DNA of 39,834 nucleotides from NCBI GenBank assembly GCA_030593075.1, contig JAUVHW010000005.1, forward strand, positions 1 to 39,834. Reading direction: 5' to 3'. A program made the translations under genes and the position numbers. Position 1 is the first letter of the stretch. Each line of letters opens with the position of its first letter. A model generated the notes under the pieces. The model did not search any database. It was not told the origin of the DNA and saw only the letters and a list, made by a program, of their open reading frames with translations. Origin of the DNA: Ardenticatenales bacterium. GTDB lineage: Bacteria > Chloroflexota > Anaerolineae > Promineifilales > UBA4811. Shown piece by piece: positions 8,632-12,862 of this stretch.

Positions 8632-10038
8632 CTACTCGGGCTTGGAAGCGGCGCCCCGGTAGCTGGTAACCAGGATGGCAAAGACGGTGCAGTGGGTAGC
8701 GTCCAACATCCTGCTCGCCAGCCGGTTGTCCAGTTTCTCGATCTCGGTCGCCGTGGTGATCACCGTGGGCAGTTGCGCGTTGTACCGATAGTCAAAAATC
8801 TGGTTGAGTTTCTCGCGTGCCCAGCTGGTTGCGCTCTCGATGCCCAGGTCGTCCAGGATCAGATACCGTGCGGCACGGATCTCCTTGAACCGCTTGCTGT
8901 AGCTGGTGCTGCTGCTGGGGTCAAAGGTGGCGCGCAGATCGTCCAGCAGGTCGGGCACGCTGATAAAGAGAACCGGGTACCCCTGCTGGCGCCAATGATT
9001 CGCGATGGCTGCGGCGAGGTGGGTCTTGCCGCAGCCATAGGCGCCAGTGAACGCTAGCCAGCCCTCCGGTGCCTCTGCGTAGCTCCTGGCTGCCTCGATA
9101 GCGCGCTGCAGGTTCTTCTGGTCGTTGCGGGGCAGATCACGCTGCCGGAGGTCGAAGGATGCGAAGGTCTGGCCCCAATGAAGGCCCAGACTGGAAAGGT
9201 CTGACTGGTCGTCGTGCACGCCAGAGAGCCGAAAGTCTGGCGCCAGGATGGTGACGATCTGCACCAGGCCCGGGTCAACTAGGCGGGAACGCACCCGCAG
9301 CTCTATCTCCTCCAGTTCATGGTTGGTGGTGATGATGGTTGGCAGGCGGGCGTTGTACCGGTGATTGAGAATCTGAAAGAGCTTCTCCTGGGCCCAGGGT
9401 GTGCCGCTCTCGGTGCCAAAGTCATCCATTATCAGCAGCGGCACAGACTTGATCTGCTCCAGGCGTTCGTGAAAGCCGACTGGCGAATCGGGCGCAAAGG
9501 TGGCTCGCAAAAAGTCGAGCAAATCAGGCACGGTGACAAAGATGACCGGCCTGCCGCGGGCTATCTGGAGATTGGCGCTGGCGGCTGCCAGGTGAGTCTT
9601 CCCGCTGCCATAGCCGCCCCGCAGCAAGAGCCAACCCTCTGGCTTCTTTGCGAACTCCAGGCAGCGCTCGTACGCCGCCCTCAGGTTGCGCCGCTTTTCG
9701 TCCGGTAGTCCCGCGGGGTCCGGACGGAAGTTCTCAAAGGTCTTGCTCTCCAGGAAACCCAACTGGCTGATGGCCCGCAAGCTCGCCGAGCGGCGCTCCT
9801 CAATCCTGTGCCGTTGGCAGTCGCAAGGGACGGCCTTGCCGAACTGAGGGTCAGCCGGCGGTACGTCCGGGGTGACAAACCCCATCCCGTTGCAGATGGA
9901 ACAGGGGGCCTCGTCACTCTCTCCCCGCTCCGCCGCCACTGCCGTACGCCATTCGCTCTCAGTGCTGGATGATGTCTCCATACTTGCCTTCGATGTATCG
10001 GCGGCGACTTCTTTCAGAATCTCCTCCAGCTGCTGCAT
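8632..10038 (-). CDS. Tandem-duplicated DnaC/IstB-like AAA+ ATPase with zinc knuckle (putative helicase loader)
   Basis: 468 residues containing two complete DnaC-type ATPase modules. N-terminal Cys46, Cys49, Cys72 and Cys74 (CSICNG...CDC) form a zinc site like that of DnaC/DnaI-type loaders. Module 1 has Walker A GGYGSGKTH (141-149), Walker B LLIMDD (201-206) and sensor ITTN (236-239). Module 2 has GAYGCGKTH (332-340), LILDD (393-397) and ITTA (427-430), losing the sensor Asn. By eye the two modules share about half of their residues over 130 positions. A normal loader has one module and about 250-330 residues. The ATG at 10038 has AAGGA seven bases upstream and lies 80 nt inside the DnaD-like gene, so translation is probably coupled. 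Likely role: loading DnaB, encoded upstream in the same operon. Confidence 0.85.
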   Translation of the reverse strand: MQQLEEILKEVAADTSKASMETSSSTESEWRTAVAAERGESDEAPCSICNGMGFVTPDVPPADPQFGKAVPCDCQRHRIEERRSASLRAISQLGFLESKTFENFRPDPAGLPDEKRRNLRAAYERCLEFAKKPEGWLLLRGGYGSGKTHLAAASANLQIARGRPVIFVTVPDLLDFLRATFAPDSPVGFHERLEQIKSVPLLIMDDFGTESGTPWAQEKLFQILNHRYNARLPTIITTNHELEEIELRVRSRLVDPGLVQIVTILAPDFRLSGVHDDQSDLSSLGLHWGQTFASFDLRQRDLPRNDQKNLQRAIEAARSYAEAPEGWLAFTGAYGCGKTHLAAAIANHWRQQGYPVLFISVPDLLDDLRATFDPSSSTSYSKRFKEIRAARYLILDDLGIESATSWAREKLNQIFDYRYNAQLPTVITTATEIEKLDNRLASRMLDATHCTVFAILVTSYRGAASKPE

Positions 10039-10720
10039 CGTGCTTTCCTTCTACCTTCCAGCGTTCCAGGATGCGGGAGATGTATGCCCACTTGCGGGCG
10101 TTGTTGTTGACTGCGATCTCTATTGCTTCCTCTATCCACTCGGCCGCGTAACAGTCCTCTGCGTCACGCAGCTGCTCGGCAATCATGGGGGTCAGGGGTC
10201 CGATGTTCTGTTCGTACAGCACAAAGACATTGGGCCGCTCGACAATCAGGCTGACCGGCTCGGCCGGATCGCCCGAGGGCCGCCACTCACCGCGAGTGAT
10301 TCCCTCCACGGCCGCCCGGCCGCGCTCGGTGTTCATAAAGTAGAGGTCTTCCATACCGGCCGCGCTCTCCACCAAGACGTGCAGCAACGTCCCTCGTGCC
10401 ACGGCGCGCTCCAATGCATCATCGAGCGCAGCCGCGGCCGCGCGCGCTGGTTTCTTGCCCCGCCCGCCGGCGCTTCCGGACCCCGCCATCGGCGTGGGCG
10501 CTGTGAGCAGCAGGCTTTGCATAAGGATGTCGTCGTCCAGGAAATCCTTGCGGACCAGGTAGCGCACTGGCCCTTCTTTGTGATGCAGGGCCCAAAAGCA
10601 ATACAGTGTCACCTTGAGCTCTGCCAGGTCGTCGATGACCGGCAGTAGCTCACTGAAAAACAGCGCTGGCAGAGCGAGGGTATTGAGCCGGCCGGCAGGA
10701 AACCCGCTGAACCCCTTCAT
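9959..10720 (-). CDS. DnaD-domain primosome protein
   Basis: A 253-residue protein. Residues 165-228 fit the DnaD C-terminal domain (DnaB_2 family): VLYEQNIGPLTPMIAEQL and WIEEAIEIAVNNNARKWAYISRILERW match the conserved helix and the YIxxIL.xW motif that binds DNA and helicase-loader partners. The N-terminal 70 residues look like a degenerate winged helix; an Ala/Gly/Lys-rich linker joins the two. In Firmicutes DnaD works with DnaB and DnaI in replication restart and initiation. It starts two bases after the dnaB stop and overlaps the tandem ATPase gene by 80 nt, giving the order helicase, DnaD-like, loader. Confidence 0.82.
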   Translation of the reverse strand: MKGFSGFPAGRLNTLALPALFFSELLPVIDDLAELKVTLYCFWALHHKEGPVRYLVRKDFLDDDILMQSLLLTAPTPMAGSGSAGGRGKKPARAAAAALDDALERAVARGTLLHVLVESAAGMEDLYFMNTERGRAAVEGITRGEWRPSGDPAEPVSLIVERPNVFVLYEQNIGPLTPMIAEQLRDAEDCYAAEWIEEAIEIAVNNNARKWAYISRILERWKVEGKHDAAAGGDSERSRRRYIEGKYGDIIQH

Positions 10721-10722
10721 AG

Positions 10723-12087
10723 CTAGGGCTCGATTCGCCGCTGCTCCAGATCGCGGAACTGCGCCAGCTGCGTATGGAAAAAGAGTTCGACCTTTCCCGT
10801 CGGGCCATTGCGGTGCTTGGAAACCGCAATCTCTGCAATGTTCGGCTTTTCAGACTCCTCCTTGGTATAGTACTCGTCCCTGTAGATGAACATCACGATG
10901 TCCGAGTCTTGCTCGATGCTGCCGCTCTCTCTCAGGTCCGAGAGCATTGGTCGCTTGTCCTGGCGCTGTTCGACGGCACGAGAGAGCTGGGCGGCCGCCA
11001 GGACCGGCACGTTCAGCTCGCGCGCCAGCCCTTTGAGCTGGCGTGAGATGTAGCTGATCTCCTGTACCCGGTTCTCGCTCCGATAGTCGCCGCTCATTAG
11101 CTGCAGGTAGTCCACCAATATCAGATCCAGACCATACTCGGCGTACAGGCGTCGGCACTTGGTGCGCAGCTGCAGCGGAGTGATGGAGGGGGTGTCATCG
11201 ATAAAGATGAGAGTGTCTGCCAGCCTTCCGGTGGCTTCGGTGAAGAGGGGCCATTCATCGTCCCGCAGAGCGCCACGGCGCAATCGATGAGAATCGATTC
11301 CGGTCTCGGCCGCCACCAGCCGCCCAACCAGCTGCTCGGCGCTCATCTCCAGGCTAAAGACGGCTACCCGTTTGCGGTGCTGGCGCGCTGCGTGGAGGGC
11401 GACACCCAACAGAAAGCCGGTCTTTCCCATCCCCGGTCTGCCGGCGATGATGAGCAGATCTGAGCGCTGCATCCCCCCCAGGATCTTGCCCAATTGCCGG
11501 AATCCCGTGGGTATCCCCAGTAGAACGTCGTCCCGTTCTGACAACTTGTGGACCCGGTCATAGTACTCGGTGACGACCTCCTTGATCGGCTGGATATCCC
11601 TTGTCAGTCGCTGTTCCGATACACCGAAAAGCGCCTGCTCGGCCTTGTCCAGCACGATCTCAATGTTCTCCGCCTCGTCGTATGCCAGCTGGGCAACCTG
11701 GCTGGCTGCACCCAGGAGGCGCCGGCGGAGCCCGGCCTGCTCCACCATGCGGCCGTACGCCTCAGCGTGAATGGCGCTGGGGACGGCATCCATGAGCTGG
11801 CTGACGTAGATCGGCCCACCGATCTCCTGCAAGCGCCCCTGATGTTCTAGCTCGCTGGTAACTGTCAAAAAGTCGATCGGTTCGTTGCGCTCCTGGACAG
11901 CCAGGATGGCTTCCCACACCCATCTGTTCTTCACCAGGTAAAAGTCTTTGCCTCGGAGAAAGGGAGCGAGGTCGATTAGTGCATCTGGGTTGATCAGGAC
12001 GGAACCCAAAACCGCCTCTTCGGCCTCGACGTTGCTTGGGGCCGTCTTTTCCGGGGCGGAGAGAGTAGTGGGACTCGAAACATCCAT
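10723..12087 (-). CDS. dnaB: Replicative DNA helicase DnaB
   Basis: 454 residues with normal DnaB architecture: N-terminal helical domain (20-120), linker, then the RecA-like C-terminal domain with Walker A GRPGMGKT (216-223), catalytic Glu in SLEMS (247), Walker B LILVDYLQLM (322-331) and the AAQLSR loop. No intein is inserted. It unwinds the fork as a hexamer on the lagging strand. Start 12087 is preferred to the in-frame ATG at 12111 because a GAGG Shine-Dalgarno lies 10 nt upstream of it. It heads the operon with the DnaD-like protein and the double-ATPase loader. The 219-nt gap upstream contains a TTGCTG/CAGCAA hairpin (near 12237-12252) and two copies of GTTGCTTGTG (12186, 12258). Confidence 0.97.
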   Translation of the reverse strand: MDVSSPTTLSAPEKTAPSNVEAEEAVLGSVLINPDALIDLAPFLRGKDFYLVKNRWVWEAILAVQERNEPIDFLTVTSELEHQGRLQEIGGPIYVSQLMDAVPSAIHAEAYGRMVEQAGLRRRLLGAASQVAQLAYDEAENIEIVLDKAEQALFGVSEQRLTRDIQPIKEVVTEYYDRVHKLSERDDVLLGIPTGFRQLGKILGGMQRSDLLIIAGRPGMGKTGFLLGVALHAARQHRKRVAVFSLEMSAEQLVGRLVAAETGIDSHRLRRGALRDDEWPLFTEATGRLADTLIFIDDTPSITPLQLRTKCRRLYAEYGLDLILVDYLQLMSGDYRSENRVQEISYISRQLKGLARELNVPVLAAAQLSRAVEQRQDKRPMLSDLRESGSIEQDSDIVMFIYRDEYYTKEESEKPNIAEIAVSKHRNGPTGKVELFFHTQLAQFRDLEQRRIEP

Positions 12088-12306: not shown

Positions 12307-12798
12307 TCAGTCGTCCGTGTCCAGCGCGTCCAGGTAGTCGCTGAACACATCCAGCTTCTCATCGGGGACCTCAGGACCCTCCACCGAGAGAATCTCCTCG
12401 TCGGGAAGCACCCCCGCTTCCTCCATCACCTTCTCATCCACAAAAACCGGCACACTGACGCGAACCGCCAGCGCCATCGCATCTGAAGGTCGTGCGTCTA
12501 TCTCCAGGAGCTTGCCATTCTGGTCAATGAACACCGTGGCGGTAAAGTAATCATCCTTGAGTGAGTTCACCAGCACGTGCGAGACGGTGCCACCGAGCTC
12601 CGTTATCACTTTCTTGAGGAGGTCGTGCGTGAGCGGCCGGGCAGTCTCAACCTGCTGCAGCTCCACGACTATGGCGTCCGTCTCAAACGGGCCGATCCAG
12701 ATCGGCAGCCGGCGGTCGCTGTCGATTTCCTTGAGCAGGACGACACGATGGGGTGACATCAGGCTCACTCGGATGCTGTCGATGACGACTTCTATCAT
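12307..12798 (-). CDS. Bifunctional nuclease (DUF151/BFN) domain protein
   Basis: 163 residues from MIEVVIDSIRVSLMSP, matching the BFN/DUF151 family: LLKEIDSDRRLPIWIGPFETDAI and the ARPSDAMALAVR signature are both present, with an acidic C-terminal tail. Some BFN proteins have RNase/DNase activity; for bacterial members the role is poorly known. An upstream in-frame ATG at 12843 is rejected because it lies upstream of the predicted transcription start (promoter 12834-12862). GGGAG precedes the chosen ATG. It is followed by a 219-nt gap before dnaB and is probably a separate unit. Confidence 0.9.
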   Translation of the reverse strand: MIEVVIDSIRVSLMSPHRVVLLKEIDSDRRLPIWIGPFETDAIVVELQQVETARPLTHDLLKKVITELGGTVSHVLVNSLKDDYFTATVFIDQNGKLLEIDARPSDAMALAVRVSVPVFVDEKVMEEAGVLPDEEILSVEGPEVPDEKLDVFSDYLDALDTDD

Positions 12799-12833
12799 AG
12801 CTCCCGTTGCTCGCACTCCCAGTTGGCGCAGGG

Positions 12834-12862
12834 ATTTTATCACGGAGCGGGGAGAAAGCCAA
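12834..12862 (-). promoter_or_regulatory. Predicted promoter of the BFN-domain gene
   Basis: Minus strand TTGGCT (12857-12862), 17-nt spacer, TAAAAT (12834-12839). The start codon at 12798 is about 30 nt after the expected transcription start. Confidence 0.55.

Follow-up and report, generated by a model that had tools for sequence, protein, structure and literature searches.

The replicative helicase operon of an Ardenticatenales bacterium of the Chloroflexota encodes a loader in which the AAA+ module of the DnaC/DnaI family is present twice in the same chain, and in which the two modules are unequal. Module 1 holds the complete motif set of these ATPases (Walker A, Walker B, sensor I, Arg finger, and sensor II), and module 2 holds the same set except for the sensor-I Asn. 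The comparison of sequences strongly supports the assignment of this protein as the chromosomal replicative-helicase loader, with a predicted binding to DnaB. The stretch of DNA analyzed, referred to here as the window, covers 39,834 nucleotides of one contig.

The dnaB operon and its conservation

The genes of the operon lie on the minus strand between positions 8632 and 12087, and are transcribed in the order dnaB, DnaD-like gene, and loader gene (Table 1). This operon had been proposed by the first-pass annotation, and both its open reading frames and the Pfam and NCBIfam matches of their products bear it out. The DnaD-like gene runs into the start of the loader gene with an overlap of 80 nt, and its product matches PF07261 (DnaB_2/DnaD) and exceeds the cut-off of the NCBIfam model DnaD_dom. 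The dnaB product holds full DnaB N- and C-terminal domains and also scores above the cut-off of its NCBIfam model. In the genome of the window, this is the single protein with a full DnaB_C match, the DnaD-like protein is the only one of its kind, and the loader is the only PF01695 protein over the cut-off. No match to the PF05258 domain of DciA was found in this genome or in 38 near relatives.

Table 1. Coordinates of the operon genes, the loader domains, and the neighboring gene in the window
Feature	Position	Strand	Evidence
Tandem AAA+ helicase loader, 468 aa	8632..10038	-	ORF, Pfam, NCBIfam, 130 distinct tandem relatives
AAA+ module 2 (residues ~281-466)	8641..9198	-	motif alignment
AAA+ module 1 (residues ~90-275)	9214..9771	-	motif alignment
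Zinc ribbon C46-C49-C72-C74 (residues 46-74)	9817..9903	-	conservation in 41 class proteins
DnaD-like primosome gene, 240 aa	9959..10681	-	PF07261, TIGR01446
Replicative helicase dnaB, 454 aa	10723..12087	-	TIGR00665, 553.8 bits
Bifunctional-nuclease-domain gene (PF02577), 5' of dnaB	12307..12843	-	Pfam

The linkage of a DnaC/DnaI-type loader to dnaB and a dnaD-like gene, also proposed previously, holds for most of the 130 tandem loci, 126 of which have the dnaD-like gene immediately upstream and 117 of which have dnaB upstream. Among the 13 loci without dnaB, the sequence available upstream is shorter than 1.1 to 1.7 kb in four, and in the other nine, with enough room upstream, dnaB was not detected nearby. 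The reading frames overlap in 134 of the 141 loci scored. The PF02577 gene is upstream in 89 of the 130 tandem loci, and is a frequent neighbor that probably does not take part in the loading machinery. In five loci (L066, L117, L051, L054, and L063) the dnaB reading frame upstream of the loader reaches 877-1380 aa, which suggests the presence of inteins in DnaB.

Architecture of the loader

The loader consists of an N-terminal helix (residues 3-13), a zinc ribbon, module 1, a junction of ~20 residues, and module 2. The zinc ribbon, absent from the first-pass description, follows the pattern CxxC...CxC and is present once per chain, ahead of module 1. Its residues C46, C49, and C72 are invariant in the 41 proteins of the class that were compared, and position 74 is Cys in 37, His in three, and Asn in one. 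The two DnaC-type modules are each recovered by PF01695 (IstB_IS21), which matches the protein twice (123 bits). Their resemblance is lower than the half of the residues estimated at first, with 42% identity (84/198) in the loader of the window and a median of 47% over the 130 tandems. Among the NCBIfam models, PRK08116, a DnaC-like family, reaches 246.7 bits against a cut-off of 189 over two stretches that correspond to both modules, and the scores for the IstB, DnaI, and DnaC equivalog models are below their cut-offs. The PRK08116 model (NF005992), which describes clostridial-type DnaC-like ATPases, has 269 positions, covers a single module, and has no function assigned.

The motifs of both modules fall in identical alignment columns. 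Module 1 contains K147 in Walker A, D205-D206 in Walker B, N239 at sensor I, R248/R252 as Arg coupler and finger, and R270 at sensor II, together with R178, F181, T213, and W215, which align with the tetrad that binds single-stranded DNA (ssDNA) in DnaC. The equivalent positions of module 2 are K338, D396-D397, A430, R439/R443, and R461, with R369, F372, T404, and W406 aligned with the tetrad. Thus, the earlier reading of module 2 as one that keeps Walker A and B and has Ala in place of the sensor Asn proved correct, and the loss is conserved in the class. The register of R248/R252 and R439/R443 relative to R216/R220 of DnaC was set from the spacing of R-x-x-S-R and from how far these residues lie from sensor II; MAFFT aligned R216 of DnaC with the finger column.

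The best solved relatives of the loader are DnaC from Escherichia coli and the Bacillus-type DnaI. In the AlphaFold2 (AF2) model both modules are well folded (mean pLDDT of 86.5), and a pTM of 0.57 means that their mutual placement is not fixed. With Foldseek, the modeled modules match chain G of the DnaBC complex 6qem, DnaI 2w58, and DnaC 3ecc. DnaI from Bacillus belongs to the same AAA+ family, has the Walker B DD, and works beside DnaD/DnaB-type primosome proteins; the identity with 2w58 is 26% over the matched module. DnaI has one AAA+ module per chain, whereas in the loader described here the dimer would be covalent and its modules unequal. DnaC from E. coli shares the AAA+ motifs, the Arg coupler and finger, and the counterparts of the ssDNA tetrad (K143, F146, S177, and Y179), and a predicted module superposes on chain G of 6qem. 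However, it is 26-29% identical, has one module, and lacks both the zinc ribbon and a dnaD partner. The presence of one AAA+ module per chain, characteristic of DnaC/DnaI loaders, does not extend to the 130 distinct proteins with two.

Identity as chromosomal helicase loader

The assignment as a loader is based on the family match, the operon with dnaB and dnaD, the single copy in the genome, the mutual exclusion with DciA, and the conservation throughout the class. In 251 Chloroflexota genomes, the loader (counted as a strong match with E below 1e-30, and read by hand from the table of matches) is present in 154 and DciA in 84; no genome holds both and 13 hold neither. Ten of these 13 belong to two families (f48 and f86), whose genomes may contain a diverged DciA or another loader. 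As reported by Brezellec et al. 2016 (PMC5109545), dna[CI] and dciA are mutually exclusive across bacteria, dnaC/I genes descend from phage genes, and one domestication event in Chloroflexi displaced dciA. The domesticated dna[CI] described there and the loader studied here are very probably the same gene. In the passages found in the main text of that study a duplicated module is not mentioned and the term dnaD does not appear.

The Pfam name of the domain, IstB_IS21, and the phage ancestry described in PMC5109545 could both evoke a transposition helper similar to IstB or a phage-borne DnaC in place of a host loader, a reading of very low probability. The first-pass annotation had named an IstB-like protein without linkage to dnaB as an outcome that would overturn its interpretation, and the transposon reading is rejected on the operon, the copy number, and the score for the IstB equivalog, which stays at 146.4 bits against a cut-off of 200. 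The neighbors across the class are dnaB and the dnaD-like gene, and the loader is a single-copy gene exclusive with DciA. Moreover, the matches listed from 50,697 phage records and 72,556 plasmid records include no tandem, and those of 0.5-0.75 kb are single modules aligned to both halves. Likewise, the separate canonical DnaC/DnaI that the first-pass annotation had also named as such an outcome is not present among the PF01695 proteins over the cut-off in this genome. A weak third match to this family, considered as a second single-module loader, was discarded as a ClpB-like protein, recognized in its sequence by Clp-N repeats and a pair of AAA domains.

In the viral contig IMGVR_UViG_3300044658_000141 (L224:2539-4086), the tandem loader has a split analogue, consisting of two adjacent but separate DnaC-type genes, of 319 and 186 aa, downstream of a 604-aa gene.

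Distribution and origin of the tandem

All 41 proteins read from the class to which the window belongs, that of the window included, are tandems, and 130 distinct tandems are found in total when other Chloroflexota lineages are included. The double architecture occurs in many members of the phylum and is not general in it: several families have a single-module loader and others rely on DciA. Three architectures can be distinguished: the tandem, a single module with a zinc ribbon (254-327 aa), and a single module with a long N-terminal extension, in which 230-400 additional low-complexity residues precede the zinc ribbon. The single-module loader occupies the same genomic place in other lineages. 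Loaders of the third architecture include L193, L194, L195, L197, L218, and L219, and in L193 and L195 the linker is preceded by a MERLN(D/E)I motif that resembles the N-terminus of the tandem loaders.

The tandems were split according to the sensor-II Arg of module 1, which is kept in type A (n = 112, with the window and its class) and lost in type B (n = 18, from other families of the phylum). Modules 1 and 2 mostly form separate groups within each type, and the duplication must therefore be old. The supports are 97/95 for module 1 of type B, 100/100 for module 2 of type A, and only 58/92 for module 1 of type A, and module 2 of type B requires two origins on the tree. A quick tree joins the second modules of both types, a point on which the careful tree does not decide, and the AU tests reject neither a single nor a double duplication (p 0.15-0.43). 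It is possible that the tandem originated on two occasions in Chloroflexota, and that the parts lost differed between them. Among the single-module loaders, L204 and L215 are placed with module 2 sequences and L217 near module 1, which suggests, as far as their position in the tree indicates, a secondary loss of one module.

Two metagenome-assembled genomes (MAGs) labeled Flavobacteriaceae (L182/G337) and Deltaproteobacteria (L148/G338) contain DciA alongside a tandem loader. The first of them consists of contigs joined by runs of 100 N, and no tandem loader was found in 147 other genomes of the phylum of its label, so that contamination is likely in this MAG.

Asymmetry of the modules

The first modules of type A have Asn at sensor I in 109 of 112 proteins, while in the second modules this position is Ala in 56, Ser in 29, Thr in 11, and other residues in the rest. 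The sensor-II Arg, present in all first modules by definition of the type, is kept in 85 of the 112 second modules. Conservation in both modules reaches 97-100% for the Walker A Lys, the Walker B Asp, and the Arg finger, and 99-100% for the columns of the ssDNA tetrad (R/K, F/Y, T/S, and W). In E. coli DnaC, the sensor I mutant N203A has no ATPase activity and shows the weakest loading among the active-site mutants (PMC8213410). By analogy, module 2 of the window would be a natural version of N203A, in which ATP and DNA binding should remain. The Ser or Thr found at this position in about 36% of type A could still support some hydrolysis.

The asymmetry noted at the outset is thus conserved in the class of the window, but it differs in other tandem lineages. 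In type B, module 1 lacks sensor II in 18 of 18 members (again by definition), and the sensor-I Asn, frequently missing from both modules, is present in eight first and six second modules; L208, L210, L211, L220, and L221 have it in both. Two tandems from small genomes of another lineage, L184 and L185, have it in neither. As the pattern of type B is unlike that of type A, the asymmetry arose differently in different lineages, and the exact division of labor is, judging by these residues, no general law of tandems. A covariation of the module 1 sensor I with the module 2 Arg coupler (104/13/9/4) was too weak and phylogeny-bound, and was set aside.

Proposed mechanism and alternatives

The loader is proposed, with somewhat more confidence than doubt, to act as a covalent dimer of which three copies would serve each DnaB hexamer, with a hydrolyzing module 1 and a module 2 that mainly holds ATP. 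The AAA+ module of a DnaC/DnaI-type loader would have been duplicated in tandem behind one N-terminal helix and zinc ribbon, and this N-terminal part would dock onto the C-terminal ring of DnaB. Three chains could then supply a ring or open spiral of six modules, in which modules of both types would bind ATP and would use the equivalents of the DnaC tetrad to hold ssDNA. In the class of the window, only module 1 would have the full apparatus for hydrolysis, and module 2 would mainly hold ATP and assist module 1 as a structural element that grips DNA and provides an Arg finger. Binding of ssDNA would cause the module 1 sites to fire and the loader to be released. DnaI is found on the DnaB hexamer as three dimers, in a trimer-of-dimers ring (PMC3791466); therefore, three covalent dimers would not represent a new geometry, and the simplest arrangement has three chains on each hexamer. 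The extension of this mechanism to the whole class, as a covalent hetero-dimer of a hydrolyzing and an ATP-holding module that builds an obligately alternating ring with three chains per hexamer, is put forward more tentatively and falls a little short of an even chance. Several Chloroflexota lineages manage with a single module, which counts against the covalent dimer.

It is conceivable, although unlikely, that the modules are stacked, with six chains per DnaB hexamer forming two tiers of six as in p97 and NSF. Module 1 would in that case work on DnaB, and module 2 would form a second tier acting on DNA or on partners such as DnaD or DnaA. The single N-terminal helix and zinc ribbon of each chain fit six docking sites on the hexamer, stacking is the arrangement of p97-type tandem AAA+ proteins, and the AF2 model, given its pTM, leaves room for this placement; the p97 matches found by Foldseek have a high rmsd (11-18 Å) and are uninformative in this respect. 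However, the ssDNA tetrad and the Arg fingers are kept in both modules, as expected if both line one DNA channel, and the known DnaC/DnaI complexes have six modules, including the trimer of dimers of DnaI (PMC3791466).

Still less probable is a near-neutral duplication, where both modules hydrolyze ATP, the tandem acts as two ordinary loader subunits, and the change at sensor I is tolerated, as little hydrolysis is required in this family. The tandems without sensor-I Asn in either module and the apparent reductions to one module (L204, L215, and L217) would agree with it, as would the fact that DnaC active-site mutants partly load DnaB and that those in Walker A or sensor II load it like the wild type (PMC8213410). 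Against it speak the module-specific pattern of sensor I throughout the class and the retention of the Walker and DNA-binding residues in module 2.

Significance

The loader family and the domestication of dnaC/I in Chloroflexi were already known, the latter from PMC5109545. For a tandem loader with unequal modules, no description was found in the freely readable journal papers searched. The fact that in the class of the window module 2 almost always lacks the hydrolysis residue and keeps its predicted DNA-binding residues suggests a division of labor in helicase loading that is built into one protein.

How many loader ATPases must fire for the DnaB ring to open or close, and whether all six sites are equal, are hard questions to address with the homo-oligomeric DnaC and DnaI. 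A natural loader with unequal linked modules fixes the hydrolysis-capable sites and may also fix the stoichiometry and, as the two modules are unequal and linked, each type of site can be mutated alone. From an evolutionary point of view, the tandem adds a second layer to the replacement of dciA by phage dnaC/I, that of a duplication and specialization after domestication in deep branches of the phylum.
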